A stretch of DNA of 64,000 nt from Tetracentron sinense (Eukaryota > Streptophyta > Magnoliopsida > Trochodendrales > Trochodendraceae), in assembly GCA_015143295.1 (NCBI GenBank), contig CM026571.1, forward strand, positions 4,855,501 through 4,919,500, written 5' to 3'. A model generated the notes under the pieces. It did not search any database and was not told the origin of the DNA. It saw only the letters and a list, made by a program, of their open reading frames with translations. Positions 14,859 through 61,758 of the stretch are shown piece after piece. Both the position numbers and the translations under genes were made by a program. How positions within the stretch are numbered: the stretch's first letter is position 1; every line of letters begins with the position of its first letter.

Positions 14859-15481
14859 CAGGGATGGAGCCAAGGGGGTGGGGGGCCATGGCCCCCCCAA
14901 ATTTTTTGTAATTCTTTAGTGCCCTAGAATGAATAGTGGGCCCATCAATTAAAAAAAAAAATTTAGTATACTTGGCCCCCCTAATTTTTTTTTCCTATAT
15001 AATATAGTGGCCCCCCAATTTTTTTTGTCATATATATAGTGGGCCCCCCAATGGAGCCCCTTATGCCCTTGAGGCTGCCACATGTCCCTATTGACATCCC
15101 TAAACTATGGTTAAAATTCACTGAATCTCAGGGTTCACCTACTTATCCTTGGTTTTTAGAAAAAAATATTTAAATAATTTTAACCTTATGAGTTAATGAA
15201 TTTTAAACAAGGGTTCAAAAAGAAATTTGATGTTTTTTTAAAAACCAAGGATAGGTGAGTGAATCTTAACCACAATTAAGGGGTATTAATAGGGACACAT
15301 GGCGACCTCAAAGGCATTATCGGGAAAAAAAAATTCTCAAAATAAAAAAACTACCTCAAATTTTTTTTCTCAGGGGTGTAGCCCCCGAACCCCCCAAATT
15401 CCATACCCTCAAATCAAAATTTTTTTTTATACATGTATTTTGCCCCCCCCCCCCAATGAAAAATTCGAGGCTTCGCCCCTA
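14859..15481. mobile_element. hAT-type MITE with perfect 8-bp target duplication
   Basis: Starts CAGGGATGGAGCC and ends GGCTTCGCCCCTA. It is flanked by GTATCAAC at 14851-14858 and 15482-15489. CAGGG-type ends and an 8-bp duplication are hallmarks of hAT elements. The middle (15075-15300) is a palindromic core shared with several other foldback elements in the window. A 104-codon open frame at 15299 is incidental. Inverted relative to the copy at 48759. Confidence 0.8.
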
Positions 15482-15682
15482 GTATCAACAATAGTATCAT
15501 TAGAAATATTATCAGTATATAAGCATGATTCTTGCATGTTTATGTGGGGAATATCATCTCTGGAATATTCAAATATTATATTTTCTCCGAAGGTCTATTT
15601 CACACATGTTTAAATAAAATAGGTTAGGGAGTCTTATGCACCTCTGGGACCTTTATTCTTGTAAAGTGTCCTACCTTCAATT

Positions 15683-15924
15683 TGTAAGACCAGTACACTA
15701 GTTGGAGAAGAAGGTCTCTATTCCTCAATGATATTATGAGGAAAGAGTATTGCATTTATATAATACTTTTACAATAGGGAAAGAGAGAATATACGTATCA
15801 ATGAGATTACATTAGAATGCAATAATAAGAGAAAGAATCCTATTAGGTTACTCCTTGATTAGTTGGCAGATCCAATCTTTGGGTGGTTTCCATATTTGAA
15901 GGGATCTCACACGATCCACTAACA
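15683..15924 (-). repeat. 3' LTR of the full-length Copia
   Basis: 242 bp, TGTTAGTGG to CTTACA on the minus strand, after the G-rich polypurine tract at 15939-15925. Confidence 0.9.
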
Positions 15925-18900
15925 CGCCCCCCGCAAGTTAAGTGGCACGACAGTGACATGAAGCTTGGATTGAAGAGCTTTGAAACGAGTGGTTGAAAGA
16001 TCTTTAGTAAAAATATTTGCTATTTCATCAACAGAACCAACGAAGCGCACTGCAATGTCCCCACGCACTACTTTTTCACGAATATAGTGATAATCAAGCT
16101 CGACATGTTTTGTTCGGGCATGATAAACCAGATTGGAAGCTAAGGAAATAACGCTGATGTTATCACAATAAATTATTGCAGGAGACTTTAGAAACACATC
16201 CAGATCACGTAAGATCATACGAATCCATGCCAATTCAGCTGTCGTATGAGCTAAGGAGCGATACTCAGACTCAGTGCTTGAGCAAGCAATAGTAGCTTGT
16301 TTCTTGGCACTCCAAGACACGAGGCTTGACCCAAGATAGACACCATATCCAGATGTAGAATGTCGGTCATCGGGGTCACTAGCCCAATTGGCATCCGAAT
16401 AAGCTGTTAAGGAGGGGTTGCCACGCTGAAAATGAAGGCCATAATGGATCGTACCTTTGAGAAAGTGAAGAATGCGTTTGACAGCAGCCCAATGAGAAGT
16501 CCTGGGCAAGTGCATATATTGGCAAACTTGATTAACTGCGAAAGCAATGTCAGGTCTCATCAAGGTAACATACTGGAGAGCACCAACTACACTCCGGTAT
16601 TTTGTCGGATCTGGAAGGGGGTCACCATCAAGTTTGGAGAGCTTAGAACCCGAGGCAGCAGGAGAAGTAATTGGTTTAGCCACATCTATCTGAACTCGAG
16701 TAAGCAAGTCACAAATATATTTGGACTAGGAAAGATATAAATCAGAGGCAGTCCTATGAGCTTCAAGCCTGAGAAAATAATTAAGTGGGCCAAGATCCTT
16801 CATCGCAAAGAGACGATTAAGATTGATCAAGATGGTGGGCAAGCTAGACTCGTGATTCCTTGTCGCGATGATATCATCAACATAAATCAGAAGGAAAATC
16901 ACACAACCATTCATATTATGGAAGAAAAGAGAGGAATCTGCCGAAGAACCAACAAAACCAAGTCCCTGAAGGTAATCGGTAAGGCGGAGGAACCATGCAC
17001 GAGGAGCTTGTTTGAGTCCATAAATGGACTCGTGCAAGCGACAGACATATGAAGGTCGACTGAGATCAACAAACCCAGGAGGTTGGGCCATGTAGACCTC
17101 CTCAAAAAGCAGCCTATGTAGAAAGGCATTGTGAACATCCATCTATCTGATTGACCAACCATTTTGAATAGCTATAGTCAACACAATCCAAATCGTAGCA
17201 TGCTTGACAACAGGGCTAAAGGTATCTGTATAGTCGACCCCTGGTTGTTAATGAAACCCTTAGCCACAAGACGTGCCTTGTATCGTTCAATAGAACCATC
17301 AGACCTTTGCTTTATCTTGTAGACCCATTGACAACCAACGACATTTTGAGAAGGGTGTGCTGGGACAAGAGACCATGTCCCTGCTTTTGAAGAGCATCAA
17401 ATTATGAACCCATAGCAGCCATCCATTGAGATAATTTTGCTGCTTGTGTATAAGATGTAGGTTCATCCAAACTGACAATAGAAAGCAAAGCGGTTGGTAG
17501 TGGATGTCGGACTTTTGGTTTGAAAATACTGGATTTAGAGCGAGTGTTATGGGAATGTTGAAGTGGATCAGAAGGGGTAGGCAAGGGTTCAACTGAAGTG
17601 GTGGTGGGGTGTGATGCAGGTGGGTCAAGTAAGGGAGGTAAAGAAGGGATATGAGAGGCCGATGAAGATGGGAGTGATTCAGCAATAGGGGTTGGTGGGG
17701 AAGGCATTACCTGAGGTTCTGGTGAAGGCATATGCATAACAGATCCGAGAAGGACATGGGTTGAATCCTCTGCAGCTTGTCCAGAAGAGTGAGCCTTTTC
17801 CAATTCAGCATATGGGTAGCGTGACTCATCAAAAACGACATGTGCATCCTATGTGGGGGTTCAAACACTTAAAGCCACGATGATTTAGACTATAGCCAAT
17901 AAAGATACAAGGAGTGGTGCAATAAGAAATTTTTCCAGAATTATAAGGACGGAGAAAAGGATAGCACACACAACCAAAACTTCGAAGGACACTATAGTCA
18001 AGAGGTTTATTGAACAATTTTTCATAGGGAGAAATATTGTCAATAACATGAGAGGGCATTCTATTGATCAAAAATGCAACAGTAGCAAAGGCATCGTACC
18101 AATGTCGAGCAGGCATATGAGAATGAGCCATGAGAGCTAAGCCCGTTTCAACAACATGACAATGCTTACGTTCGGCTAAGCCGTTTTGTTGAGGAGTATG
18201 AGGACAAGAGATGCAATGGGAAATACCATTTTGGGATAAAAGATTTTTAAAGCGAAGACTTGTATATTCCCCACCGCCATCGGATTGAAGGGACTTGATT
18301 TTCAAATCAAACATATTTTCAACAAGCAATTTAAAACGAGCAAACACGTCATAAACTTCAGATTTGAGAGAGGGGGAGAAGCCAACAATATCTACTAAAG
18401 TCATCAACAAAAATAACATAAAAACGATGTCCATTTATTGATAAATCAGGAGCTGGTACCCACACATCGGTGTGGATAAGCTCTAATGGATATGTGGTTA
18501 CAGACTCAGATGACTGAAATGGTAAGCGAGAGCTTTTGCCCCGTTGACATGAAGAGCAAATAGACTGTAATTTAGACGACCCAAGACAAGAAACAAAAGG
18601 TAAAATAGCAGCCAAAGTATGCTCAGCTGGATGACCAAGTCTATGGTGCCAAATGTTGCTAGTGACACGAACACTCGTAAAGGCAGATGGAGATGACATG
18701 AACACTCGTAAAGGCAGATGAAGAAGACACCTCACTAATTTTATTGTGCTGAGGAAGCTGAAGAGGGTAGAGGCCATCATTGATCCGTCCTTGGAAGAGG
18801 ATCTTCCCCGACTTGTTGTCCTTCACAGAAAAGCCAGAATTAGTGAAAACAAAATAACAGTTATTATCTTGAGTGAACTGAGAAACTGATAAAAGGTTTG

Positions 18901-20049
18901 TTTTTATGGTAGGAACATGTAAAATGTTGTGCATGCGGAGATTAGAACCATTGTGAGGGATCAAGGTAGTGCCAACATGAGAGATGGGGAGTTTGTTACC
19001 ATTACCAAACGCGAGGCTTTCATAGCCAGCATAAGCAGAGTGCAAGGAGAGGTTGCTTAAGTCAGATGTGACATGATTGGAGGCCCCTGTGTTTGTGTAC
19101 CATGTCGAAGCACCTTGCTTAGAGGCCACCATTGCTTGAAGCTTATGTGGTGGTTGTCGACCCTGATAAGAGAGATCAAGACATTGAAAGCAGTCCAAAG
19201 CATTATGACCCACGCGGTTACAAATTTGACAAGTGGACAGATTTCCTGGCTTTGAAGAAAAATTGTTGGTGGTGCTTTCTGCCGAAGAGTTGCCACAACC
19301 ACCATTATTACGGCCACGCAGGCCTCGACCGCGATAATTGTTGGGGCGACCACGATAGCCCCCACGACCTTAAAACTGTTGTGAGGTAGCTCGATTTGTA
19401 AAAAGAGCAGTAGATTGTTGTTCTAAATTCAAGGATGCAGAATACGACTCCAAGTGTAACTCAAAGGTCAACAATTGTCCAAATAATTTATCAAAAGTAA
19501 TCGGGGTATCACGATTATTAATGGAGGTATGAACCAAATCATACTCCTGTCCGAGGCCATTAAAAATTTGATTGCACAGATCATACTTAGAGACTAGCTG
19601 TCCCACAGACTCTAGAGCATCAGCAATAGTTTTCATCTTGTCAAGATAATCAGTAATAGAAAGGCCCCCTTTTTTAAGAGACTGAAACCGTTGTTTCAAT
19701 TGAAGAACTCGCGAACGAGATTGAATGAGGTGAAGACGTTCAAGACATAACCATACCTCTCTAGATGTTTGAAGGCCTACCACACGTTGAAGCACAGGTG
19801 CCTTGAGAGTGGCGTTTATCCAACGTAACACCAACGAATCACGCTAATAGTTGCAGTAGGCGTGTGGTCTTTATCACGAAGAAATTCTACGTGACACGGG
19901 AGGGATCCATCAATGTATCCATGTAGTTTGTTTGCTCTCAATACCGGAACAAACTGACTTTTCCATAGAAGATAATTATCACGATCCAACTTAATGGAGA
20001 CGAGGCTCATGATATTAGGGACAACGATCGAAGACGAAGATGACGCCAT
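15919..20049 (-). pseudogene. Copia gag-pol polyprotein, multiply broken
   Basis: Gag starts at the ATG 20049-20047 and contains a CCHC knuckle (CQICNRVGHNALDC, about 19230-19190). The protease region reads NTGASNHVT where active Copia proteases have D-T/S-G-A, so the catalytic aspartate is Asn here. The integrase follows with its HHCC zinc-binding segment (HHRLGHP...CSSCQRGK), IHTDVW and a downstream SDGGGEY block. The reverse transcriptase (17300-16726) has YGLKQAPRAW and YVDDI. RNase H (16707-15919) has TESEYRSLA and CDNISV. At least five frame breaks separate these blocks. By domain order (integrase before RT) the element is Copia. Confidence 0.88.
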
Positions 20050-20121
20050 TGGAAGAAAGAATTTTTTATGCAAATGATGGAGGATCAAAATAGGAGGAAA
20101 CCTATTTTCTGGTTGATACCA

Positions 20122-20347
20122 TGTAAGACCAGTATACTCGTTGGAGAAGAAGGTCTCTATTCCTCAATGATATTATGAGGAAAGAGTATTGCATTTATAT
20201 AATACTTTTACAATAGGGAAAGAGAGAATATACGTATCAATGAGATTACATTAGAATGTAATAATAAGAGAAAGACTCCTATTAGGTGGCAGATCCAATC
20301 TTTGGGTGTTTTCCATATTTGAAGGGATCTCACACGATCCACTGACA
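20122..20347 (-). repeat. 5' LTR of the full-length Copia
   Basis: 226 bp, TGTCAGTGG to CTTACA on the minus strand. It lacks a 16-bp segment present in the other LTR near 15853. The primer-binding site follows without a gap. Confidence 0.9.
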
Positions 20348-20505
20348 CTATTTAATATTAAAAATTCTCTTATTTTGTATTTTGGCTTGGATTTTCAAAG
20401 AATGACTTTATCAAGAAATTATAACAGTATTAACAGATTTGATATGGGAATAAACAGCGTTCACTAGTTAAAGACAACAAAATATAAGTAAACGAAAGCA
20501 AGAAC

Positions 20506-20672
20506 CTGAAATCCACAGGAGAGTATGTTTCCACTCAAAGTCGGTAAATGTGCCTGGAGGAAGATGTATTGGACCATGTTTGGGAAACTGTATCCAGGTA
20601 CTTTCAGTATATCTGAAGTCAAGAGACAAAAGCTCGTTTTCTGGCAGTGCCATGTACAACCCAGCAAAATAC
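20506..20672 (-). CDS. Candidate internal exon of an unrecognised gene
   Basis: The minus-strand exon is bounded by CATGTAG| at its acceptor and TTTCAG|GTTCTT at its donor. It reads in one frame as YFAGLYMALPENELLSL and, after a gap, FPKHGPIHLPPGTF. Codon use and composition look coding. With the candidate exon 26656-26699 it joins in phase (2 nt plus 1 nt) to give VDGHAIPNDSRYFAGLYM across the junction. Without splicing at 20506 the frame stops at 20468. I do not recognise the family. The intron between the two pieces holds the 4.3-kb LTR element at 21937, and the full-length Copia sits just downstream, so the gene may be dead. Confidence 0.35.
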
Positions 20673-21931: not shown

Positions 21932-21936
21932 ATCAT

Positions 21937-22600
21937 TGTTATATTTTTTTAATGTAAAACAAAAGTTTGAAGAAGTTTCTATTGGTATTTAACCTTGCCC
22001 TTTTGAGAATCTCTTAACCGTTACAATCTCCTTTATTTTGGTTAACTCTCTTTTAATAGTAGTAAATGTGGAGTTACATTTTAGATTTATGAGGTCAGTT
22101 TTCTTTTAGAAAACATGGGTTTTTGGGGCCTTATTGCTCCATTATTTTGGGTTGCCTTACCTCTATAAATTGAGCCTTAGTTTCTCTTCCAAGAGATATA
22201 CTCATGGGATTTTATTTACATCTTTCTCATTTGTCTTAATCAAGATTTATTGTGTTTTCAATACTTTGGGCTGGATCATAGTCGAGTTCGCTGTAGACCA
22301 AGGTTTTGAGAGTGCTCCTTCTCCTTGGTGTTGATCGTTGTATCCTGGGGGTGACCGCCAAGTTTCCTGTGAGCATCACGGTTAGAGAGAACCAGCAGGG
22401 GGCGAATTTCACCTTAAGGACAGCGTGTCCAACACGTGCCTCGATCAAATTATACTGATAAGTTTTCTACTATTGAGATTTTTTTTTTCTTCTTTTATTG
22501 ATTTACTATCACTCTATCATCTAGATTATTTATCTCTTGCTGAAAAAATATTTTGATATATTTTCTATACTAATTTAAATTGCTTACATTTATTCTAACA
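21937..22600 (+). repeat. 5' LTR of the young Copia-type element
   Basis: 664 bp, TGTTATATTT to TTCTAACA. It contains a probable promoter region with ctataaat near 22164. Nearly identical to 25592-26256. Confidence 0.92.
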
Positions 22601-25591
22601 ATCTTAAGGTGAAATTGTGAAATTGCATGTTATGTTTTGCCGTCATATATGATTCTATGACCTTATAAACATACTAGCTGTAAATGATTGGACACAAGTA
22701 AGAGAATAAACTGACTATATATAAAATATGGAGAGTCAGATAACCTGATATAAATTATTTTAAAATTTGTGATTGCTTACCTGTAAGACTAACTAATCTT
22801 AAAATAACAAAATTAGGATATGAATTAAGGAGATGTGCCTCTATTGCCTATACTATATATATTAAGGCATATAAAAATTTAGATCTTGATAATAATGTGG
22901 TAATAGAATTAAGGAAAACTGAAAATTCTTTTCCTTTTAAATTCTAAATAATTGTGGGGGATTAATAAATCAAGATCTAATTGAAACTAGCAATTCTAAT
23001 CCTAGTGTACAGTTATCGTCAAATGAAAGAAATAATGTAAAGTAGAATTGAATACTAGTGGAATGGGGATATGCACATATATACCATATTGATGTGATGC
23101 ACGGTAAGAGAATAACATTCTCCATGTTTCGTCCTATGTCGTGAATAGTGCATAGAATATGTGAAATTTAGAGGTTGAAGATTTCTTCTTAGTGAGATCT
23201 ATAGCTCTTCAGAGTGGGATATATAGTCAAATATCCTTGATAGACTCACCTATATGATTGTATGTTAAGGAAACATACAATAAATAGTGTATCTTAACTA
23301 GAGTACAGAGCATATTCACTCAATTTGTGTATTAGTTTTCCACTTGATATGACGTGCTAAATATATTGTGCAAAACAAGTTATGTTGAGCCAAGTTGAGC
23401 TATGAACATATTTATTCTTAAATTGAATAATATGCAAAACATATTTATTCTTAAATCGAATATTGTGCAAAATATATACAAAAACTTCCAAATAACACCA
23501 TATATTTTGAGTTATGTTGTTGATAAATGATGATTGATTTAAAGGTGATCTGAGCATGTGCTTTGACTATTATACACTAGAAAATTATGTGGCTGGATTA
23601 ACCCATATGGTTAGTGAAGTATATGCTCTCATTGATCATATGCTCTCATAGAGAACCTCATTTTAACTCTGGGTGTATTATATAATATTTGGAATTGTGG
23701 GGGTGTTTCACATAAAAGCAACCTAATAAAACATTTGATTATATGTCAATGATATTATATGAGAATAAACCTAAAGTTTATTTATAACCTAGAGTTATGA
23801 GAATTATATGTTAATGATTTGATCATTTAAATTTGACATGGTAGAAGCAAATTAAAATAAAATGAGTTTATATAATTATCTCAATGAGATCAAATATTAT
23901 GTGGATTTATTCACCCTTGGTAGGACTATCTCTTGGAAATTATCCAAGTAGACAATTTCATTCCACTATAGAGCTCAAATTTGATGCCTGTAGAGAGAAA
24001 ATGTAAAGAAATCGTATGACTTAGAATTTTATTTGTTGTATGACACAAAATTAAGAATAATATCTATGTTAGCATTGAATTATATCTATATTGAGAATCC
24101 TGACATATACGTTAGATGAAGTACTATGCTAGTCATTCTACATATGAATATCATGCAGATGGTCATACTGCAGATGATTATCTTGCACGTTATTATCCTA
24201 TAGATGTTTATCCTACAGATGGTTAGACAATTACTCTAGGAGAGGGTTATTGTAATTTGGATCCATTAATTCAGTGGACTAGCTAATAAATAAACTTGAG
24301 GGTAATAAGCAATCTGATTTATTGTATTATACCTAAATAGCATGTGATATAGGTAAACTTTGTAGATTTACTTGTAACTCAGGACAAAATATTTGAGATA
24401 CTTTAATTAAGGTGTTAAGAAATCTGAGATATAATCCAGATTGTTGTCTTAAACTATATTGAGTATCTCGTTGTATTAGAAGGATACAATGATGCAACTG
24501 TAATGAGTATTCCGTTATATTAGAAAGATATACCGATGCAAATTAGTTGTCAGATTCATAAGCATCTAAGTCCATGAGTGGATATATGTTCACTCTTAGA
24601 AGAGGTGTAGTGTCATAAAAAAAAAAAAAAAAAATCTATTAGCAGACCTACAAAGTCCGATTCATGATGTAATTGAAGTTCATAGCTTTGGGTAAAGCTA
24701 TAGAAGAAGCAGAATGGTTAAGAACATTGCTGGTAAATATACCGCTTTGGAGTCAGTCAATAACTGCTATTTTAATACATTGTGATAGCCAAGCTGCTAT
24801 AGCTAGAGCTAACAATGTATCATACACTGAGAAATCCCGACATATATGTCGAAGGCATAATTCGGTTAAGGAATTACTTAACAATTGAATTATTGCACTT
24901 GATTTTGAGGTCAAAAGAAAAATATTGCGAATCCGTTGACCAAATGATTAGCTCAAGAGCTAATTCATAATACATCGAGGGGGATGAGGCTAAAGCCTAT
25001 TGATAAAAAGTCACCTATAATGGAAACCCAACCCGAGTGACTGGAGATCGATCCCAAGAACTAGGTTCAATGGGAAAAACAAATTGTTGAGTGACTTGTG
25101 AGAACACTAAAGTGGAGGATTCATTATTCTCAAACTCATCCCTATGGTGTACTAGTGTTACTTGTAACGAAAGGAGGATGAGTCTTTGACTCTTAATGTC
25201 TTCTATAGCTGATTCACAGTGGGATGTATAGTTGCAAGGCATCCTTGATAGAGACACCTATATGAGTGTGGAAGTGGGGTCGCTTCCTATGAGAATTTAG
25301 GCTGATTCTCTAGAGCACTCATGAATACCGGGATTTAGCACATGGCCGATAACGTGCACAACCGATAGAACTCGACAATGTTAAGGGGATATTGTGTGTG
25401 TGATATATTGTCTTGGTTCATGAATAAAGAGATTGGTTCAAGACACAGTTCACCAATCTCTTCATGCACCCGATATATTCACACTAAGCAAAGGTTCAAG
25501 TCTAAAAGACACCTTTGCCCATATGCAGTAACTCCATTAAGCCCTATATAATTTTATTTATTTCTTCAAAATTTTGTTTTATGTGGGGGAT
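22601..25591 (+). other. Internal region of the young LTR element, largely non-coding
   Basis: AT-rich with no gag, protease, integrase or RT that I can find. A segment near 23210-23262 recurs in altered form at 25216-25262 (shared catccttgataga-like and cacctatatga-like blocks). The leader and the 3' tail are thus partly duplicates, as expected if most of pol was deleted. Confidence 0.6.
24673..24888 (+). pseudogene. Copia RNase H remnant
   Basis: The frame contains EEAEWLR, IHCDSQAAIARA, EKSRHICRRHN and VKELL. These correspond to the C-terminal RNase H block of a Copia polyprotein (CDSQAA, KSRHI-RRHN). It continues in a broken frame towards about 24980, where GGGGGATGAGGCTAAAGCC-like sequence marks the usual end of this lineage's pol. 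It is plus strand, consistent with the LTR orientation. Confidence 0.75.
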
Positions 25592-26256
25592 TGTTATATT
25601 TTTTTAATGTAAAACAAAAGTTTGAAGAAGTTTCTATTGGTATTTAACCTTGCCCTTTTGAGAATCTCTTAACCGTTACAATCTCCTTTATTTTGGTTAA
25701 CTCTCTTTTAATAGTAGTAAATGTGGAGTTACATTTTAGATTTATGAGGTCAGTTTTCTTTTAGAAAACATGGGTTTTTGGGGCCTTATTGCTCCATTAT
25801 TTTGGGTTGCCTTACCTCTATAAATTGAGCCTTAGTTTCTCTTCCAAGAGATATACTCATGGGATTTTATTTACATCTTTCTCATTTGTCTTAATCAAGA
25901 TTTATTGTGTTTTCAATACTTTGGGCTGGATCATAGTCGAGTTCGCCGTAGACCAAGGTTTTGAGAGTGCTCCTTCTCCTTGGTGTTGATCGTTGTATCC
26001 TGGGGGTGACCGCCAAGTTTCCTGTGAGCATCACGGTTAGAGAGAACCAGCAGAGGGCGAATTTCACCTTAAGGACAGTGTGTCCAACACGTGCCTCGAT
26101 CAAATTATACTGATAAGTTTTCTACTATTGAGAATTTTTTTTTTCTTCTTTTATTGATTTACTATCACTCTATCATCTAGATTATTTATCTCTTGCTGAA
26201 AAAATATTTTGATATATTTTCTATACTAATTTAAATTGCTTACATTTATTCTAACA
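25592..26256 (+). repeat. 3' LTR of the young Copia-type element
   Basis: 665 bp, same ends as the 5' LTR. Differences by eye: gctgtag/gccgtag, agggggc/agagggc, cagcgtg/cagtgtg, and one extra base in a T run. Confidence 0.92.
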
Positions 26257-26299
26257 ATCATACCTTTTCCTGATAATTTTCATTGCAACAATAGCCCTT

Positions 26300-34263: not shown

Positions 34264-34890
34264 AGAGCAATAGTCTACTCCTCGCCCTTTACAAAGCCCC
34301 TTTAATTGCCTTGAACTATGGTTAAGAAGTTTTAACCCTCAGGATTAAAATATTCAAAATTTTTTTTCTTTTAAAAACTAAGGGGTTTATGCTTTAACCC
34401 TAAGGGTGTGTTCCTTTGGCAAAAAAGTAAGGGAAAGGAAAGGAAAAGTATGTTTTCGTGCATTTTCTTGCGTTTGGTTTGCAATAAACACCCTTTCATT
34501 TTCTTGCATTTTCTCAATAATGACAAACTTTCTCCCAAAAACTTCATCAATCTTTTGATGATTATTTTACGAGAAAATTTAAGTTTTTTTTATTTTTCCT
34601 TTCTCTTCCTTCACTCACTTTCCCACAAAACGAACGCATCCTAATCCTATGTTTAATTGTCGAGAAAATAAATGAAAGCATTGAAAAGAAAAGAAAATTG
34701 GACAAAACACAACTAAAATTGTACTAGAAATTCAAAAAAAAAATTTATTTTCCATGTTTTTACCTATTCTCTCAACAACCAAACATAGCATAAGGGTTAG
34801 TGAACTTTTACAAGAGTTAAAAATGAGACACATAGCAAGAAAAGAGGAGCCGCCTTCTTGCGTCACCGACCAAAGAGGTGATTATTTTCC
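34264..34890. mobile_element. Foldback element (agcaatag...gattattttcc type) with a nested MITE
   Basis: The left end agagcaatagtctactcc and right end ggtgattattttcc match those of 49724-49992 and, reversed, 61499-61758. The middle carries the ctatggttaag core. It is interrupted by the TAA-flanked MITE at 34404-34790; without that insert it would be about 240 bp like its relatives. Confidence 0.6.
34404..34790. mobile_element. TAA-flanked MITE nested in a foldback element
   Basis: Starts GGGTGTGTTCCTTTGG and ends CCAAACATAGCA, flanked by TAA at 34401-34403 and 34791-34793. Removing it restores the continuity of the surrounding foldback element when compared with 49866-49885. Tourist-like by target site and termini; TIRs are imperfect. 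Confidence 0.55.
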
Positions 34891-46392: not shown

Positions 46393-46919
46393 ACATAAGG
46401 CCTAGGGGTTGAAGGCCCCCTTAACCTTTGAAAAAAGCTTTGAAAAACATAAATTTTTATATGGGTTTAGACTATGCTTCTCTAGGGGGAGTAGTAGAGC
46501 TCCCCCCCCCCCCCAATTTTTAACTTTTTTTCCTTATTAGAAGGGACTGAAACCCTCTACGGTTATTACCAGACACGGGAGAGTCTAGTTACGTCCCTGA
46601 GGTCATCATGTGTCCCTTTTGACACCCCTTAATTGTGGTTAAGATTCACCCATTTATCTTTGATTTTTTGAAAAAAAAAAATTATAAAAAATTAATTGTG
46701 GTTAGAAAAAATATCGATTTTTTTTTCTAAAAATGAAGGATATATAAGTGGGTGAACTCTAGGGGTGTGTGAATCTTAACCACATTTGAGAGGGGGCAAA
46801 AGGGACACGTGGCAACCTTAAGGGCGCAGCCAAATTCCCCAGAGTCCGGTCATAACCATCAAGGATTTCATTCCTATTAGAAGTGTTGCCCCTAGAAGAA
46901 AATCCTGGCTTCACCCCTG
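46393..46919. mobile_element. hAT-type MITE enclosing another foldback element
   Basis: Left end CAGGGCGGAGCC, right end GGCTTCACCCCTG. Inside it, at 46561-46857, lies a second foldback with ggttattaccagacacgg / ccggtcataacc ends and the shared core. An 8-bp target duplication is not recognisable for the outer element. Confidence 0.5.
46561..46857. mobile_element. Foldback element, accggactc-type ends
   Basis: Ends are inverse of one another (ggttattacc ... cataacc) and match 59938-60256. The core arms carry cttaattgtggttaagattc and gtgaatcttaaccac. Confidence 0.55.
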
Positions 46920-48100
46920 CACGTGCCCTCACTCAACTTTTGAAAAATTGGATTTTTATTTTTTTAAAAATTTAGGCTATAGCATGGGAATGGGGGCATG
47001 TGCCTCCAAACTTTAGGACAAAAATTATTTATTGAGTTAGGATCATATTCAATTGAACTTGCACCACAATTATGGTTAAGAATTATTAACCCTTAGGATT
47101 CAATATCTAACCTTTGTTTTTAGAAAAAAAAAATTAATCCTAAAGAATTGGATAGGATTTGGACTCATATGTTTTTTTATACTAAGTTGTTTAAGTATTT
47201 AATTGGGTATACTCATGAGACAAGGGGGCAACTATCTCTTGAACTTTTGAAACAAAAAATATATCTTTCGTACCATTTAATTTAATTATTTAATTGGGCA
47301 TAGTCATGAGGCAAGAAGACAGTTGCCTGTAAACTAGGAGAAACAATACTCACAAGATATGTATAAAATGTATAAACGAAACAACCCAAGAACTTAGTTA
47401 TCAAAAAAAAAAAAAGTCTAGGGCCAAACCCCCATCCCCTAGACCCAAAATGTGTCGTATCCACCTAATCTTACTTCACAGAATCTTTGAACAATTACTA
47501 CTATTCTCAATCAATCATGGGTGCCCCCTCTACTAGAAAATCCTGACTCCACCCCTGATCTTAACCCTTAATTAATTGAATTAAATTATTCAGATTTGGG
47601 AGTATATTTGAGAGTGCCTGATTCATATTTGAATACTGACAAGAGTGAAATGGGATCACTATGTCTTGCGCGGATGCCCGAGCTTGGCCCTAGGCCCATG
47701 CTAGGCCACTCTTGAGTCTCCACAATTGCCTGCTCGTGCTAGTGCAAGTGTGTATCCCACATTAGGGTGATCTTCCAATCTCTTCTAACGCTATGGTTGT
47801 GATGCCAACCGATTAGCCTAACTTCAAATGCTAGGTTTTTAACCCTTTAACTACCGAACATATATTAACACTATTAACCGGGGTTGCGACTGAACGGCTA
47901 GTCTTGTACTAAAAAAAACTCTCTCGAGTCCTTTTTTTTTTGTAGTCGAATACAGTTAGGCCGCAAACTCAGTTAGCATTGATTAGTTGTTAACGGGTTA
48001 CAGAGCCGAGCGCCCAATTTATAAGCGGACTAGAAGTGGTAGACTTTTGATTTCTCGGGACTAGAAGTGGCCGCAAACTCAGCTAGGTTTTGATATTTAG
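46920..48100. other. No supported gene; decayed repeats
   Basis: Contains a decayed right end of a hAT-type MITE (about 47535-47555, gactccacccctg) and taggccgcaaactcag-like fragments near 47951 and 48068. No coding region seen. Confidence 0.35.
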
Positions 48101-48426
48101 TTTTCAAATTCTCTGCCTATTGTATCATTGAATATTTTATATTTTTAGCCGTGTATTGCTTATGAGATCGAATCACAGCCAATAGCGATTGAATTCAGGG
48201 AGAGTTCAATCACTCCCACAGCTCAACACGTGTCCCCTTTAATCCATATGAACTGTGGTTAAGTTTTCATATTCTCTGCCTATTGTATCATTGAATATTT
48301 TATATTTTTAGCTGTGTATGGCTTCTGAGATCGAATCACAGCCAATCACGATGGAATTTAGGGAGAGTTCAATCGCTCCCATAGCTCAATATATGTCTCC
48401 TTTAACCCTTATTAATTATTGTTAAG
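48101..48426. repeat. 163-bp tandem duplication
   Basis: Units 48101-48263 and 48264-48426 share ctctgcctattgtatcattg, gagatcgaatcacagcc and gggagagttcaatc. The duplication doubles the left arm of the foldback element below. Confidence 0.8.
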
Positions 48427-48655
48427 ATTTTCTAATCCTTAGTGTTCAATAATCTAACCTTAATTTTTTGAAAAAAATGTTAAAAAAATATTAACCGTAA
48501 GGGTTAAAAATTTTTAACTAGAGTTAAATATATTTTTTTCAAAAAAGTTAAGGTTAGATTAATAAACACTAAGAGTTAAAGGGGATACGTGTTGTGATGG
48601 GGGGAGCGATTGAACTCTTTCAGAATTCAATCACGATTGGCTGTGATTCGATCTC
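48164..48655. mobile_element. Foldback element, gatcgaatcacag-type ends
   Basis: The left arm gagatcgaatcacagccaat is matched in inverse by attggctgtgattcgatctc ending at 48655. The core (acacgtgtcc ... gtggttaag) lies inside both arms. The left arm is present twice because of the 163-bp tandem duplication. Confidence 0.7.
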
Positions 48656-48758
48656 ATCGCTTCTACATTTTACCATCACGCCGCATCACATCATAAGAAT
48701 GTTTTACTTGTAAACCTTAGGGCATTTCTACTGTAATCCCATAGTCGTTGACTAGATC

Positions 48759-49356
48759 CAGGGGCGGAGCCAGGAAGTTTTCATTGGGGGGGCCAAAATA
48801 CATGTATACAAAAAAAAATTTGATTTGAGGGTATGGGATTTGGGGATTCGGGGCGTAGCCCCCTAGAAAAAATTTTTTGGGGTAGTTTTTTTATTTTGAA
48901 AATTTTTTTTCTCGGTAATACCTTTGAGGTCACCACGTGTCCTATTAATATCCCTTCATTATGGTTAAGATTCACCCACCTATCCTTGGTTTAAAAAAAA
49001 TATATCAAATTTCTTTTTGAAACCTTGTTAAAAATTCACTAACTCCTAAGAATAAAATTATTTAAATATTTTTTTCTAAAATCAAGGATAAGTAGGTGAA
49101 CCATGAGATTAGGTGAATTTTAACCATAGTTAAGGGGTGTCAATAGGGACATGAGCATAAGGGGACTCCATTGGGGGGCCACTATATATGTGACAAAAAA
49201 AATTAGGGGGGCCACTACATCATATTGGGCAAAAAAATTAGGGGGCCAAGTATACTAAAATTTTTTTTTTTTAATTGAGGGGCCCACTAGTCATATTAGT
49301 ACACTAAGGATTTACAAAAAAATTGGGGGGCCATGGCCCCCCTGGCTCCGCCCCTG
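48759..49356. mobile_element. hAT-type MITE with empty site in the duplicate locus
   Basis: Ends CAGGGGCGGAGCCAGG and CTGGCTCCGCCCCTG, flanked by actagatc (48751-48758) and actggatc (49357-49364). The duplicate locus at about 62268-62295 has the same flanks with no insert, so insertion followed the duplication. 598 bp with the shared palindromic core at about 48920-49160. Inverse of 14859. Confidence 0.85.
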
Positions 49357-49723
49357 ACTGGATCAGCGTTGTCCACCACTTTCAGTGCAAAAAGAAAGGT
49401 CTATTATAGGCCTAAGTGGTTATTTTCGCCCCCTGAGAAGGTGCAATTATTGTGGTGGTGGTAGAAATTAATAGTGGTTAGCAAGCAGGGCCAAGAAGAA
49501 AAGGGTTAAGAAAGGTCTCTAGGAAATGATACAACAATTTTTTGAGTTTAAACTACTCTATTTATACAATCTCATAATTATGGAGAAAATATTTTGTAAA
49601 ATTATCAGTACCTTTCTCCGTATTTATAAAAATGTCACCACCGTCTTTACATTATAAATGGGAGCTCCACTTTTACGTCTTCCAAGAACGAGCTCCGCTT
49701 TGTAGTTATACTTCTTTTTTTAC

Positions 49724-49992
49724 ACGAAGAGCAATAGTATGCTCATTGTGCAAGGAGCGGACTATTGCTCCATGCCCCTCACAAAGTCCATTTAATTGCC
49801 TTGAACATTGGTTAAGAAGTTTTAACTACCGTGGTTAAAAAAATTAATTTCTTTTTCTAAAAATCAAGGTTAGATGCTTTAACTTTAAGGGTGAGTAAGT
49901 GAATCTTAACCACAGTTAAAAAGAATTAAAAAAAAAGACACAGGGAACAAGATGCCTCCTTCCCTCCACCAACGAGTAGGTGATTATTTTCC
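49724..49992. mobile_element. Core-bearing foldback-like element upstream of dirigent gene 1
   Basis: Flanked by TTTAC at 49719-49723 and 49993-49997. The duplicate locus (about 63405-63420) has no insert. The outer ends are not clear TIRs, but the core ccttgaacattggttaag / cttaaccacagttaa is palindromic. Related to 34264 and 61499. Confidence 0.55.
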
Positions 49993-50162
49993 TTTACCAA
50001 ATACCAAGAGTTTCCAAATAATGTAATTAGCCCACCTTATACAATGAGATGAGGGCAATGGGCTGAAAGCCTCAAACTCAGATCTAACAACAGGCTCATA
50101 GAGTATTATCCTTCTCTTCTCTCTTTTTGCCTTTTCTCCTCCTTCAACCAAGGAGAGGAAAT

Positions 50163-52490: not shown

Positions 52491-52499
52491 GACAGAGCC

Positions 52500-54946: not shown

Positions 54947-55621
54947 GTACTACCAGAAACAGCAAAACCATATTGCCATAACACAAAATATTCCTATCGG
55001 TTGAAAGTATATATCGAAGTGGAGAGTGGACAAAGTCATCATCCTCTGAAAATGTGGTTTTTCTTTAGTGAGACCAACCAAAAGCTTCGGCTTTCACTGT
55101 ACTCCTGTTGCAGAAATTGAATTTATCCTAATTCCATATAACCTTTTTTTCCGAACTTCCATCCTACCTTATTTCGATCAAAGTGCTTGATCTGATAATG
55201 ATCGCTCTAAGACATGAAACAGTACCAAGATTGGCATGTGCCTACCATCTTTGGCGGGTCACATTGGGGCTGGACAACGCTAGGAACATACCAAATTCAG
55301 AAAAGCTTGGAAGATCATAACCTCTGGAGTCTAGAGTGTCTCAGGGAGGTCGTAGGTCACGCCAAGGAGGAGGCTATTATTCCATCAATCCGGACTTCGC
55401 ATGGATGCAGGAATGTTGCTGGTGATTGACGAATTTGATCGGAAAATAGGAAGCGCTGATCACAGCAAACAAAAAAATTCTTCATAGACTGTAATTTTTT
55501 TTCATTGAACAAATAATGAAAGAAACCACAAATTAATAGAAAGAGATGGAGAAATTGTTTGGGTCGTCATTGCTGAGATTGGAGGAAAAAAGATCGTATC
55601 CGCCTTCTTATACTATTTTTG

Positions 55622-56006
55622 TGTTACGTGTCCTTAATAAGTAAATTGATATTCCGCACCTCATCAGACCAGTCTTTTGAGGAGTATTGATCAAGGCACT
55701 TATCAATGGTATCAGAGCCAGACACCACGTCACGAGTTCGAGTCACGGAAATGGCTATTTGGGCAGGGCTATGGAAAAAAGGCTGGAGAAGTGCCCCGCC
55801 CCATAATGTAAGCCATTGCGGAAAGGGCTACTTAGGGAGGGCTATGGAAAAAAAAATCCGGAGAAGTGTCCTGCCCTAGAGTGAGAGCTACCGAGGACGT
55901 CGACTACGGAAGCATGATGATATATTACGTGCCTTTAATAAGTAAATTGATCTTACGTAACTCATCAAGCCTGTCTTTTGAGGAGTATTTGTCAAGGCAC
56001 TTATCA
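55622..56006 (+). mobile_element. Second TRIM-like element, plus strand
   Basis: Direct repeats of about 84 bp (55622-55705 and about 55921-56006) share cctttaataagtaaattga-like and cttttgaggagtatt blocks. TGGTATCAGAGCC (55707) follows the first, a plus-strand primer-binding site. The internal part has two imperfect repeats (gggctatggaaaaaa at about 55768 and 55839). A clean target duplication was not found. Confidence 0.75.
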
Positions 56007-56992
56007 ATAATTGATGTGTGCCTGCACCTCAAATAACTTCTACCGAAGTCGAGTTAGGAATTCTTCGTATCCTCTATTTACTTAAAAACAAGAAACCCCA
56101 ATTAAACTGACTACTACTAACAAAACAGTTACCATAACTAATTAAGTAAGTTTCTTATTTCTAAGGACCCACTAAATACACAACTCACTCTCTTAATTAA
56201 TTAAAATAACTAAATAATTATAATTAAGATAAGTACACAATATTTTGCTTCTTCACGCTTGAGAGCAATGGGATGTTTCTCATGTCTTCACCCTTGAGAG
56301 CAACGGCAAGTCACTTTTTAATATTTGGAAACTTCAACAAAGTTGAGGAAATAAGAAAATAAGTAGACTGGTTAAGGATGGCAGGAATGGAAAGAAAGAT
56401 AATGGAGAGAGAGAGAGGGCTGATTGAGGGGGTTTGTAAATTTAGTGGTTTAAAACCGTTTGGGACGGGTGTGTTATTTGAGGGGGTTCAGTTGTTTGAA
56501 ATGGTCAGTATAGTTGGTCCATCTGACTTGTAATCCCAAATGAAGAGATTCTCATAATAGAGAGCCACGTCATCTCAACTCTTGTATGGTATGGTAAATG
56601 ATAAATGATGAAGATATTCTCAAAATAGAGACCCACGTCATTTCAACTCTTGTATAATATTAAGTAATACATTAGGCTTAGAAGGGTTGTGCCTTTTTGG
56701 TAGATTATGTGAACGGTTGCAATTGCCCCAAACACCGAAAACGAAGACGTGGATTATTTAGAGAGAGAAGTAGGAAATGGTTCAAGTAAAACTAAATTGT
56801 TTAAATTAGGGGAATCAATGTAACACGTGTCATAAGATGGTAATATGATAATCCTACGTGACAGTGGTAGAAAGGGAGAAAACATTCTGACATACTATTA
56901 GTTAATAGATTTGAATAAAATGCTTTGGTGGGCTTCTGCGTAATTTTTCTCCTCTTTCAACCTTCCATTAAAAAAATAGTTTACTAATTATT
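56007..56992. other. No supported gene
   Basis: AT-rich intergenic sequence with a GAGAGA tract near 56406 and a degenerate direct repeat (gagacccacgtcat-like at about 56562 and 56620). Confidence 0.35.
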
Positions 56993-57345
56993 ACACCCCT
57001 CCTCTTGCGCTAGTAGTGGGGTGTGGCCTCTCTCTATTAGGATCGTAATCCAATCCCACTAGTTGATGAGGGCTTTAGATTTGCTCTGGTAGACACCCAA
57101 GCTGGACATTCAGGAATCCACACTTCATTGGACAGCGGGCGAAAAAAATGGGAGAGATATGAAGTGGGGAGAAGTCAAGATCATGAGGAAGAAATGAAAT
57201 GACTTATCTCAATTTTTAATGTCAGGTGCCCGATGAAGTGTGGATTGTGGATGCCCGAGCGCCCAATTCGAGCGTCGACCAGAGCAAATCGGAAGCCGAA
57301 AATGAGTTTCAATCGATCCCCAAGATAACCACTAACCCTAGGCCT
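56993..57345. repeat. SINE-like unit with a foldback inside
   Basis: 56993-57075 resembles the SINE-like repeat at 32479 (cctcttgcgctag, gtgtggcctctct, aatccaatccc). At 57076-57290 a foldback begins ttgctctggtagacacc and ends ggtc-type gaccagagcaaat; its arms are about 50 bp and carry ccacacttcat in both orientations. SINE-like sequence resumes near 57320 (ccccaagataaccac). Confidence 0.45.
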
Positions 57346-58387
57346 GTACTAACGTAGGACCAAGCCCCGGAAAAAATCACTCTTTCTCAAATCTCACTCA
57401 AGAGGGGTGGGTGGTGGGTGGGTTTGGAGGGCACACCTAATCTAATGGACTATTCCTAGGGACTCTTACTAGGGGCTATTAATAGGGTGTGTGGTCAAAA
57501 AGTGCTTCCTTACCTACTGCGCTTGGCTGTTCTACTTGTCATACTTCAAGAAGTAGGCTAAATTGAATTCAAAAGTAGCAAGATGGTTTGATATCCGAAG
57601 CAATAAAAAAAAACCTTTTCTAATTATTAGCTCTAATAGTGCACCAGAAAAAAATTATTACCTCTAATATTTTTTTTTCCGTAGGCTTTGTTTGTTTTGG
57701 ACGAAAAATAATATGGGAGAAAAAATTCTAAGAAATAAAACTTTCATTGTTCTAATGAGATTTTTTCTCAAATATAGAGTGATATTAGAGAATTATTTGC
57801 AATAAAAACTTATTTTGCATAAGGCCAAACATTAAAATCAACTTTCTTTCGAAAAGTAATTTAGTGCACCTATTTTTCTTCCAAATAAACGCAGTCTTAT
57901 AAGAAAATAATATTAAAATTAGAAAGTAAGCATCACCAATTGAATTTAGGCATCAACCCCTTTAAAAATAAAATCATTATTTGAGGTGTGGAGTTAATTA
58001 GAGTTGGGTTCAAGGTAAAATTAACTCGACTTGAATATTATAGTACATTTTAATAAAATAATATTAAATATTACAAATATGACGTATATATTTTTATTAT
58101 TATACTAATATTTTTTTTTTATGAATCAAGCTCAAACTCGACCCAAGTTATTATGTTGGAGCTGAGCTTTAAGTTTTTTTTTTCTATTAAAGTTGTCGGC
58201 TTGAATGCACCCTTTGGTTTAATCCAACTTAATTACCCTCCTCCACCCAAAAAAAAAGGAGATTGGACAAGATCTTAGTAGTAGTTACAAATTACAATGA
58301 AGGCTTTCCTCGGAGAGTAATTTAAAACTCTCCATAGTACCTACAATCGAGAATTGGACGGATTGAAATAAATATATAAATTTATAA
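57346..58387. other. No supported gene
   Basis: AT-rich intergenic sequence with several T runs. No open frame of interest. Confidence 0.35.
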
Positions 58388-59717
58388 GTAAATTACACTG
58401 CCTTCCCCTGAGGTTTGGTGAAATTGCAGAAACCTTCCATTTTGTTTCAGGAATTACACCACCCTCCCCTCTACTTTAATTGTCCACAACAGATTCACCT
58501 TTCTGTTAGTATGTTGTTAGTGAGATGGATGAATTTTGATGATGTCATGATTTTAACATTTTAAAATATCTAAATTACCCTCATGAAATTAGTTAATGCA
58601 ATAAAATAAATAATTGGTAAGCTTGGGTATACGTGATAGTGATCTGGGCCTCCAATTGAAAAATCTTGCCACTAATCATTTCACAGGATTAAATGAAAAA
58701 TGAGTTAAAAGGAGACACGTGACACAAAAGGGGACCCAAGATGCCCCTCCTCGAGTCACCAACTGAGGAGGTGATTATTTTCCGCTTGGAAAATTGTTGA
58801 CTGTGTTAACTATATGTGTATGTGTATTTCGAGATTGTCAAGTTAATATAAGTGCTGGGTTTGGCAGATCATTGCTTCCTTCTGCCTACTAGTGTTGGCG
58901 CTGGTTTTGTGGGCAGCTTTGAATTTAAGAAACTCTTGAGGGATTTCAAAGATAGCCTTGAAGCACTGGGTGTCCCAGGTGTTGAGGAATCAAAAACTAA
59001 TGGAGAAAAATTCTTTGCCAGGGGAAACATTGCTGCTGGTGTCCTCTTTCTTGTTATCAATTTGGGATCAAATGTAGTTGAAAAGAAACTAAAGCAAAAT
59101 TATTCAGAGGCTCCCACTGCTACTACTATCCAGACAATCCGTAGTGATTTGAATATCATAATGCGATTTTTTCTAAGTCTTCTTGGTTATTATACACAAA
59201 CACAATAACTCAAATACGAAATTGCTTGAAGAAACATTTTATCGAACAAGTGGTGTGATATATCTAAATTCTAACCAAACAGTTAATCTATGCAAACATA
59301 AGATCATGGTGTTTAGAGATTTCTCCAAACTACATCTAGGACGAGAAAAATCAAGCATTTTGGAATCTAACTAGATTGATATTAAGATTTTTTATTTTAT
59401 TTCTTAAATTTTCCCTTTGGTTTCTTTACTACAGAAATTTCTCAAACAGGTGTCGTAAAATGAAAGGTCTTACATCACGTAGAAATGAAAGAGAAGTATA
59501 AGCATAGAGCATCATAAAAAAGGAAGAGACAACGGGACTGATTGGTCTTCTTTCGTTGAGTTTTCAAACCAGGCCATAGGGGTAAAATTGTAAAACATCA
59601 TTTATTGGTTATCGACATCAACTTAACAAGCTTAACAGGTGAGGACAGTGTAATTTTATAAACAAAATGACAAGTTTTACAATTTTACCAAACCTTAGGG
59701 GAGGTCAATGTACGCGA
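58388..59717. mobile_element. Long-TIR element carrying a coding fragment
   Basis: The left arm (aaattacactgccttcccct, then gaggtttggtgaaattgcag) is matched in inverse by the right arm (acaattttaccaaacctta, then ggggaggtcaatgta) for about 70 bp. Subterminal tttgatgatgtcatg is shared with 28446. Between the arms lies a 118-codon frame with normal-looking protein composition and a half copy of the shared foldback core (58690-58790). Target duplication not resolved. Confidence 0.55.
58852..59208 (+). pseudogene. Captured gene fragment, family not recognised
   Basis: The frame contains LLPTSVGAGFVGSFEFKKLL, DFKDSLEALGVPGVEES and EKFFARGNIAAG. It looks like an exon of a cellular gene rather than transposase. 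The upstream sequence ends in GGGTTTGGCAG, an acceptor-like site at about 58868, so intron sequence may have been captured too. There is no promoter or start context of its own that I can support. I cannot name the donor gene. Confidence 0.4.
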
Positions 59718-59937
59718 ACCCTAAATTTATTTCCAAAACGTTATATATCATGATGCTAGCGAATGCAAATCACATCAGAATCTTAACCACGGGTAAAAAA
59801 CCAAGAAAAAGTTAAAAAAAGATACAATGACAAAAAACACCACCGAGGAGGTGACGACTATTTCCCTTTTTTAATGGATAGAGGTAAGTTGCTTGTAAGA
59901 CGGGTTTTATGAATTGACTCATGATTCTCTCCGTTTG

Positions 59938-60256
59938 TAACCGGACTCGGGGAGTCCCGTCGTGCCACTGATGCTGCCATGTGTCACTTTTGACACCCCT
60001 CAACTATGATTAAGATTCAACCACCATAGGGTTCATCCACCTATCATTGGTTTGTAGAAAAAATTATCTAAAAAGAAATTTAATCCTAGTTAAATTTCAC
60101 TAATTCCGAAGGTTAATATTTTAAAATAATTGTTTCTAAGAATGAGATTAGGTGGGTGAACCTAAGAGTGGGTGAATCCTAACCATAGTTAAAGGGGTGT
60201 CAAAAGAGACACATGGTAGTGTCAGTGTTGTAACAGGACTCCCCGGAGTCCGGTTA
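59938..60256. mobile_element. Foldback element, accggactc-type ends
   Basis: The left end taaccggactcggggagtcc is matched in inverse by ggactccccggagtccggtta at the right end. The inner arms carry the shared core (gacacccctcaactatg / catagttaaaggggtgtc). Same type as 46561-46857. No target duplication resolved. Confidence 0.7.
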
Positions 60257-60390
60257 TAACCGGAGATGATTACGAGTCTTATTAAAATAATATCATTGTG
60301 GGTCAAGGAATTTTAGGACTGAGGTTTGTTGGTATCAAAAAGATATGGGCCTACGAAAAAGACGAAGCACCCGTGATTACCGGTTGCTGA

Positions 60391-60606
60391 CTAGACCATG
60401 GATTTGGAGTTTGGATGGACAACAGCGCTGGCTGTTGCGTTACTCAAGAGTTGCGCTGTGCCCATCCAAACTCATGGATTTGAGATGGGGGGGAGATTCT
60501 AGACCATGGATTTGGAGTTTGGATGGACAAGAGCGCTGGCTGTTGCGTTACTCAAGAGTTGCGCTGTGCCCATCCAAACTCATGGATTTGAGATTGGGGG
60601 GGGGGG
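60391..60606. repeat. 108-bp tandem duplication
   Basis: Two head-to-tail units starting ctagaccatggatttggag at 60391 and 60499, almost identical. Within each unit atggatttggagtttggatg is followed by an inverse copy, catccaaactcatggattt. Confidence 0.9.
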
Positions 60607-61498
60607 TTTGACGGAGATCGATAGAAGAATCTCTCTATTAGTAGAGTACGTAGAGCTTTTACCTACCACTAAAAAACAAATACTCTGGCATTGACGGTCG
60701 TACGGTGATAATCGGATTTGGCAAATCCGGTTATCACCCCTAGAGGTCGCCACGTGTCCCCTTTGACACTCTTTAACCGTGGGTAATGTTCATCCACCCC
60801 TAGGGTTCACCCACTTATTTGTAGTTTTTTTTTAAAAAAATATTAATTTTATTTTTAAAATTAAAAGCTGTTTTTAAAATTTTATTATTATTAAAATTAA
60901 ATTCCACCATTTTTGAGATTAGAATTAAATTCCACCATTTTTCATGTCATAATTATAACCTTTTTAAATTCAATTTTGAGAATGGGGATTGCTAGGCTGG
61001 ATCTCCAACGGACTGGACGATCAGGTGAGCCACAAGACCTGTCCATTCTACCGTTGTTTTTCCACTTTGAGGTGGTGGGTCGGCTTAGCATTCCACCATT
61101 GAGAATATACTCGTACCCTTTCCAAGCGTGAAGGGAGAGAAAGGACTTGTCCTAGCTAACTGCAGTGTCCTGTGTCCCTAAATTTGGTTAAATAATGATA
61201 AATGTATCTTTCATTTTTTCTGAATATCAAAGATTAGATAGATGAGTCTCTAGTGAATTTTAACCACAGTGAATAAATGTTAAAAAAAGACATGGAACAA
61301 TGAGATTGAGATTGCACGGTAACTTAAGGTTCAAGCTGACCGTGGTGCGTTTCCTATTTCCCTATATTTTTCCTATCTTGGACTTAAACTAGACTTTTGC
61401 TTGGACTATGGGATTGGGGAGTCCATATAGGTTGAGAATTTCATTTCTAGCTTTTCACAAGGATACGGAAAGAAGATAAAATCCTATCAATTATCATA
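60607..61498. other. Decayed foldback pieces, no gene
   Basis: A half foldback with accggtt-type ends near 60700-60830 (core gtcccctttgacactcttta) and a matching inverse arm near 61245-61310. A block at 60615-60700 recurs at 62530-62625. Confidence 0.4.
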
Positions 61499-61758
61499 AG
61501 GGAAATAATCATCTCCTTAGTCAGAGAAGAGGGGGCGTCTTGGCTCCCCTTTACTTGTCACATGTCCCCTTTTAACTCTCTTTAACTGTGGTTAAGATTC
61601 AATCACCCCTACAATTCACCCATCTATTCTTGGTTTCTTAAAAAAAAAAATTTAATTAAAATTGATCACAAAGCTTAAAAAAAAATTTAACCCACACGAG
61701 TTCATACCATTTGAAAGGCAGGTTTGAGAGAGCTGAGGAACGAACTATTGCTCTTATC
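61499..61758. mobile_element. Core-bearing foldback-like element, inverted copy
   Basis: Starts gggaaataatcatctcc and ends gaacgaactattgctc, the inverse of the ends at 34264 and 49724. Contains ctctttaactgtggttaag. Confidence 0.6.

Follow-up and report, generated by a model that had tools for sequence, protein, structure and literature searches.

Mutator-like elements have target site duplications (TSDs) of 8–11 bp and terminal inverted repeats (TIRs) of 14–500 bp (PMC6446971), and the Tip100 hAT element of Ipomoea has the TIR CAGGGGCGGAG and gives rise to an 8-bp TSD upon integration (PMC12511174). Galileo of Drosophila, a relative of the P element, has long TIRs, subfamilies and chimeric copies, for which exchange has been proposed (PMC3573991), and the Tm1 Mutator/Foldback family of root-knot nematodes has TIRs made up for the most part of tandem repeats of 13–15 bp, along with short terminal motifs (PMC3169594). 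We analyzed a stretch of 64,000 nucleotides from Tetracentron sinense (assembly GCA_015143295.1, contig CM026571.1, positions 4,855,501 to 4,919,500 of the forward strand; hereafter the window), in which miniature inverted-repeat transposable elements (MITEs) with dissimilar ends contain one palindromic core. The probable explanation is a single abundant lineage of non-autonomous Mutator-like MITEs whose ends have drifted and whose core has been kept, together with a hAT MITE that acquired the core separately.

Like Mutator-like MITEs, the elements with two of the end types (B and C in the list below) are small and non-coding, with a 9-bp TSD and long TIRs (PMC6446971); they differ in that their consensus ends contain a type-specific hairpin, that no transposase was linked to these ends, and that the types are alike in their inner rather than their terminal part. 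The likeness to Tip100 lies in the TIR, as element A2 starts and ends with an exact CAGGGGCGGAG, and in the 8-bp TSD, which is perfect (8/8) in element A1 and in the genomic copies L124, L126 and L127; the difference is that the elements here are about 600 bp long and have a core common to Mutator-like MITEs. Galileo is the nearest precedent that we found for an exchange of ends, with its long TIRs, subfamilies and chimeric copies (PMC3573991), but it is related to the P element, and here the ends agree in 72 of the 75 distinct assigned elements. Among Mutator foldback families that include MITE-like members, Tm1 is the nearest precedent found; it is similar in its mostly 9-bp TSD, its composite TIRs and its MITE-like members of varied interior, whereas TIRs of tandem repeats with short terminal motifs belong to Tm1 (PMC3169594). 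In a literature search by five end and core strings, Tip100 was the sole subject of a transposon paper among the matches listed, and we do not claim that the families are unpublished.

The proposal of the sequence-only reading that elements with different ends have a core in common was confirmed. A core-arm model trained on 17 arms detected 11 elements in the window, and the best arm of each element scored between 22.6 and 111.1 bits compared with a top score of 10.8 bits in ten dinucleotide shuffles. The core-bearing elements and the half copies associated with them are as follows, with arm coordinates as given by the model.

14859–15481, minus strand: A1, Tip100-like hAT MITE with a two-armed core (arms at 15060–15321, 111 and 77 bits); target duplication GTATCAAC/GTATCAAC, 8/8.
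34265–34889, unstranded: D1, agcaatag/gattattttcc end type; core arms at 34278–34850 (54 and 27 bits), separated by other sequence as judged by eye.
46544–46874, unstranded: B1, Mutator-like MITE of the accggactc end type; core arms at 46588–46831; TSD TATTAGAAG, 9/9; TIR GGACTGAAAC/GGAATGAAAT.
47067–47137, plus strand: F1, lone inner core arm (42.7 bits, outside the training set).
48164–48266, plus strand: tandem-duplicated C left end with part of the core (arm at 48213–48266).
48327–48655, unstranded: C, Mutator-like MITE of the gatcgaatcacag end type; core arms at 48375–48609; TSD ATGGCTTCT/ATCGCTTCT, 8/9; TIR GAGATCGAAT, 10/10.
48759–49356, plus strand: A2, second copy of the hAT MITE, with exact CAGGGGCGGAGCC on both sides; core arms at 48914–49163; target duplication ACTAGATC/ACTGGATC, 7/8.
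49729–49991, unstranded: D2, agcaatag/gattattttcc end type, upstream of a dirigent gene at about 50140; core arms at 49766–49932 (45 and 61 bits).
58697–58784, minus strand: half copy with a D end and little core (4.3 bits); 58702–58783 is 78% identical to 61500–61578 of D3.
59776–59868, minus strand: half copy resembling a D end by eye, with little core (3.8 bits).
59916–60278, unstranded: B2, related MITE of the GACTC end subtype; core arms at 59958–60234 (97 and 81 bits); ends of 62 and 63 nt.
60701–60861, plus strand: E, half copy with a hairpin end (hairpin z −5.3), outermost ~16 nt gone; core arm at 60736–60861 (95 bits).
61209–61294, minus strand: F2, degraded arm (22.6 bits, outside the training set).
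61500–61753, unstranded: D3, agcaatag/gattattttcc end type in inverse orientation; core arm at 61541–61676 (96 bits); TSD TTATCATAA/TTATCAAAA, 8/9.

A1 and A2 are 85.5% identical and lie in inverse orientation. The two arms of B1 (46544–46652 and 46766–46874), each comprising a 63-nt end and a core arm, show 74% identity. The tandem duplication of the C left end is based on direct repeats at 48096–48267 and 48259–48430, which are 87% identical. Three half copies had also been counted as core carriers: those near 58700 and 59770 score below the best shuffle, and the one near 60730 does carry a core arm and belongs to an additional end type, E, longer ends of which are found elsewhere in the genome (e.g., L059, L092 and L094).

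Because most of the detected arms, all except those at 47067 and 61209, had been used to train the model, each end type was left out in turn. The best held-out arm had an E-value of 8.5e-24 for type A, 4.8e-22 for B, 3.2e-15 for C, 5.5e-21 for D and 2.9e-22 for E; arms that scored weakly when held out were the two of D1 (1.5e-4 and 3.4e-3) and, in C, the right one (3.8e-3). The core arm reads approximately CCCYTGAGGTCGCCACGTGTCCC-TTTGACACCCCTTAACTGTGGTTAAGATTCACC and mostly occurs in inverted pairs. In the 1.161-Gb assembly the core 20-mer TGTGGTTAAGATTCACCCAC has 19,049 places with at most one mismatch (none for its backward control), the motif ACACGTGTCCCCTTTAAC has 5,859 (control 1), and a 24-mer specific to the hAT type has 811 (control 0). 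A core 20-mer had no match in viral contigs. The two strings by which the core had originally been described proved mostly inexact, with 3 and 13 matches when up to 3 mismatches were allowed.

Arms from the wider genome were obtained from 130 stretches (L009–L138, after L001–L008 were dropped as repeats of L009–L016). Stretches L009–L068 were picked by a motif favoring C cores, L069–L118 by an exact inner 20-mer favoring A, B and E cores, and L119–L138 by a motif of the hAT type that was derived from A1 and A2, both of which carry the core; since this choice is biased by motif, the counts of end types are not frequencies. Window and stretches together contain 306 arms with a complete outer side, 296 of them distinct; as some stretches overlap, the tallies of 306 arms and of 118 two-armed elements, as well as the core identities of the hAT arms and the comparison of pairing within arms given below, hold a few copies twice, and recounts by distinct arms are free of duplicates. 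The distinct arms comprise 76 C, 84 hAT (42 on the long and 42 on the short side), 23 E, 20 B, 13 T (a tandem-array type), 11 B2, 10 D and 7 Bc arms, and 52 with ends outside any group, so that the four kinds of outer ends originally noted are too few. Among these unassigned arms, further end types were each seen more than once by eye (L070 at 637 and L087 at 2607; L076 at 1464 and L109 at 519; L084 at 2243 and 2709; L045 and L022), and these may be drifted ends or real exchanges. In L023, L024, L030, L035, L046 and L047 a C-like end and the outer core stand in tandem about 104 bp apart, which are MITE arms turning into small arrays; another form of array is seen in L055 (756–1599), with six core arms in the same direction at ~145-bp spacing.

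End and core are strongly linked. Genome-wide searches with exact end-core patterns, which sample a part of the copies only, yielded 88 cases of a C end on a C core and 150 of a B end on a B core, compared with 0 of a C end on a B core and 5 of a B end on a C core (8e-61 by Fisher's exact test); the five cases show B-like junctions, and their C-like cores may have arisen by point changes. For 213 of 231 distinct arms (25% expected), and for 5 of the 10 in D, the nearest core at a different locus belongs to the same end group. On a core tree of 122 arms, computed with the ends excluded, the C type requires 1 change (support 36), the hAT short arm 1 (support 98), the hAT long arm 2 and D 3; pooled groups require 7 changes compared with a minimum of 4, and all eight labels 28 compared with 81.7 when shuffled (0/200). 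Where both ends of a distinct two-armed element are assigned, they match in 72 of 75 cases, with the hAT long and short sides taken as a pair and 42 of 117 elements excluded for an end unassigned or unscored. Among arms that have the exact C-core motif and a complete outer side, 42 of 44 distinct ones carry C ends. This linkage suggests drift with co-descent of end and core rather than free exchange or nesting.

By their target duplications the end types fall into two kinds, with 8 bp in A and 9 bp in B and C. The TSDs of B1, C and D3, all of 9 bp, exceed the 99th percentile of random placements in the window (for D3 a score of 10 compared with 9.01). Of the 37 two-armed elements in the genome sample that have a C end, 8 show a perfect 9-bp TSD other than poly-T (L011, L018, L019, L029, L031, L044, L059 and L067); seven of these 8 have ends of 63 nt on both sides and one, L059, ends of 63 and 58 nt; one further C-end element, L038, has a poly-T TSD (9/9). 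For type B, 2 of 3 elements with B at both sides (window 46544 and L084) have a 9/9 TSD. The distance from the terminus to the hexamer CACGTG in the window is 63, 63, 62 and 63 nt in B, including 63 nt on each side of B1, and 63, 63 and 64 nt in C; in the genome it is 61 and 63 nt in L084 and mostly 63/63 in C. With a TSD in the usual 9-bp form of the 8–11 bp range and long terminal inverted repeats, the accggactc and gatcgaatcacag ends belong to Mutator-like MITEs; the gattattttcc ends do so less surely.

In each of the six consensus ends (B, Bc, B2, C, D and E), AATC or AATT stands about 56 nt ahead of the hexamer; these ends start with G-N6-AAT(C/T) and contain one hairpin each, the sequence of which is type-specific (z of −1.92 for B, −3.28 for Bc, −3.90 for B2, −3.22 for C, −1.84 for D and −7.97 for E). 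An initial folding of 13 window ends gave a hairpin at p < 0.05 in 3 of them. Pairing between hairpin halves is 6.7 within C, and 3.6 between C and B, which is at the shuffled level (3.7–4.0). A weak residual similarity, in register, remains between the outer ends of different types: type-level column permutation of the window ends gave a summed z of 5.6 (0/300), compared with a mean z of −0.17 (sd 1.4) in 36 comparisons among nine control families. Because end models fail across types, it is length, motif position, hairpin and permutation that speak for a common origin of C or D ends with B and E ends. With moderate confidence we regard the C ends as a far-drifted form of one TIR, and with lower confidence the D ends as well.

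Under the single-lineage explanation, each arm would be a long terminal inverted repeat in which an end of about 63 nt, with G-N6-AAT(C/T), the hairpin and then approximately CCCYTGAGGTC, leads into the core (CACGTGTCCC...GGTTAAGATTCACC...). A MURA-type transposase may move the elements in trans. The genome has 1282 candidates for the corresponding domain PF10551, of which 150 were scored and matched. The outer ~60 nt would drift faster than the core, with the two ends of an element changing jointly, and one lineage could thereby split into families with dissimilar-looking ends. In agreement with joint change, ends of the same element are more similar than ends of other elements of its group in E (0.788 and 0.706, p = 0.014, 7 elements), in B/B2 (0.740 and 0.672, p = 0.022, 5 elements) and in C (0.821 and 0.808, p = 0.024, 23 elements); the corresponding core identities are 0.807 and 0.772, 0.783 and 0.757, and 0.812 and 0.798 (p = 0.055, 0.084 and 0.019). 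This matched change of both ends, which is suggestive only, is the basis for a tentative and rather doubtful idea, that mutations in one arm of the hairpin are copied into the other arm by template switching there, that conversion carries them to the other end, and that a break point at the hairpin apex frees the core. The outer half of the hairpin or the whole hairpin is lost in several E copies (L110, L111, L081, L082 and the right end of L108), and breakage at the apex is therefore plausible.

Elements of the CAGGGGCGGAGCC type are chimeras, in which a Tip100-like hAT MITE contains an externally acquired two-armed core. All 20 hAT copies fetched by a motif outside the core have both core arms at a nearly constant position (the right arm of L122 is weak, 34.9 bits). 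Their 8-bp TSDs match at 8/8 in 3 copies (one of them TATATATA), at 7/8 in 4, at 6/8 in 4, at 5/8 in 1 and at 3/8 in 1, with no value for 7. The hAT arms are 0.73–0.76 identical to B and E cores, 0.70–0.72 to D and 0.67 to C, and the hAT MITE would thus have gained a B/E-like core and then been amplified. Since the 20 copies share the core site and the short and long arms form separate groups in the core tree, a single acquisition is most likely. The edges of the captured core would fall within the hairpin region, in its inner half: in a continuous alignment, from which these edge positions are taken, the match to Bc ends begins 28 and 22 nt outside the hexamer. Past the last 16 nt, the similarity of the hAT core to B and E ends is not significant alone (p from 0.12 to 0.996).

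A number of observations weigh against a single drifting lineage. Concerning the ends, B and E end models detect 0 of 79 C ends and 0 of 10 D ends, and none are detected in the reverse direction; exact AATC stands at the expected position in 4 of 20 B ends; D ends measure 55, 59 and 62 nt and are thus not constant; and without the first 10 nt the permutation yields a mean z of 1.2–1.6, with D-E negative. Concerning the hairpins, the combined z of −9.0 counts related types as independent, 18 of the 23 arms behind the E consensus were selected for an intact hairpin, individual copies of B are without an excess of hairpins (mean z −0.06), pairing within an arm exceeds that with other copies of the same type in E alone, and RNAalifold on 20 ends found no pairs and no common structure. 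Concerning target duplications, those of B2, D1 and D2 in the window are not above chance compared with random placements; E ends yielded no convincing one, the best being 8/8 in L108, which does not pass the 99% null of the genome sample, and other E matches being the hairpin itself; the P4 type (L070) has 8/9 with ends of 63 and 39 nt and a score of 18.5, below the 99% null of 20.3; and the window C element, at 19.5, is also below this broader null, although C and D3 pass the narrower window test. No transposase gene was tied to the MITE ends in a search that covered the PF10551 domain itself. Resolution of the core tree is poor, with 85 of 119 inner branches open; B, Bc, B2 and E intermingle there (15, 5, 8 and 10 changes), and 52 of the 296 distinct arms have ends outside all groups.

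The last two observations also suit a Galileo-like modular exchange, in which recombination or gene conversion repeatedly swaps ends around a common core, as do three Bc intermediates (L025, L040 and L063) that join a B-type hairpin end to the C-like junction CCCACAGGTC and can be accommodated by either reading. Differing ends are present in 3 of 75 elements, two of these being B with E, and the hAT chimera is itself a real exchange. However, the numerous mismatched ends or mosaics of a Galileo-like system were not found; mixed combinations number 0 and 5 against 88 and 150, C forms one side of a core-tree branch, with the low support noted above, and exact C-core arms nearly always have C ends. 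The end-core counts and the core tree thus lead us to reject general exchange between B and C. Of the modular exchange proposed by the sequence-only reading, the hAT case stands, apparently as one event; B, Bc, B2 and E, which are close subtypes, may have exchanged ends with one another, as may the arms with unassigned ends; and as a general account it appears improbable.

The other option of that reading, an independent core MITE inserted repeatedly into different host MITEs, we judge very unlikely. The hAT family does hold the core as a block within its own ends, and neighboring and tandem arms are common. However, the distance from terminus to hexamer is near constant (61–63 nt in B, mostly 63 nt in C), equal on the left and right and equal in B and C; as random nesting would not yield such constancy, nesting was rejected for these types. 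None of the 20 fetched hAT copies is free of the core, and direct repeats around the hAT core are scattered and mostly of low complexity. No core-only copies with a constant TSD were recognized in a non-exhaustive search, and a scan for repeats at the core edges, 20–130 nt around the core of the 118 two-armed elements and likewise not exhaustive, found none that were consistent. Finally, MITEs are generally AT-rich and palindromic, and convergence or base composition might be invoked for the likeness of the cores, but this is refuted by the held-out detection (3e-15 to 9e-24) and by the genomic 20-mer counts, and its probability is negligible.

The window contains two dirigent gene copies about 13 kb apart (88% identity over 539 columns; PF03018 in the first copy). 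C, A2 and D2 lie upstream of the first copy, and the corresponding places at the second copy are without them; the joined flanks score 97 for A2, 67 for C and 125 for D2, compared with 38, 44 and 36 for the top of 200 shuffles. These empty sites show that C, A2 and D2 are real insertions. Three core-bearing MITEs within ~2 kb (48164–49991) thus precede one dirigent gene only, a possible regulatory difference between the copies. Elsewhere in the window, an inverted-repeat element at 58394–59712 (arms 58394–58470 and 59637–59712, 77% identical) encloses the D half copy and an open frame of 94 residues and is possibly gene-capturing. Direct repeats at 21935–22606 and 25590–26262 (99.3% identical over 673 columns, 3.7 kb apart) are perhaps the long terminal repeats of a young retrotransposon, fragments of Copia-type gag and pol lie at 13190–19834, and a 103-bp tandem duplication at 60391–60601 is 98% identical.

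It is customary to name MITE families after their ends. Here, unrelated-looking ends appear to derive from one lineage and to remain linked to their cores, so that a tally based on ends could put the number of origins too high. As the hAT chimera shows, a core is able to pass from one transposon superfamily to another, apparently through one event, and thousands of copies in one genome make drift and the hairpin mechanism testable. If the hairpin mechanism is true, one transposon lineage would keep founding families whose ends are mutually unrecognizable and whose core is still readable, and breaks at the hairpin apex would release the core for capture by other transposons, such as the hAT family.

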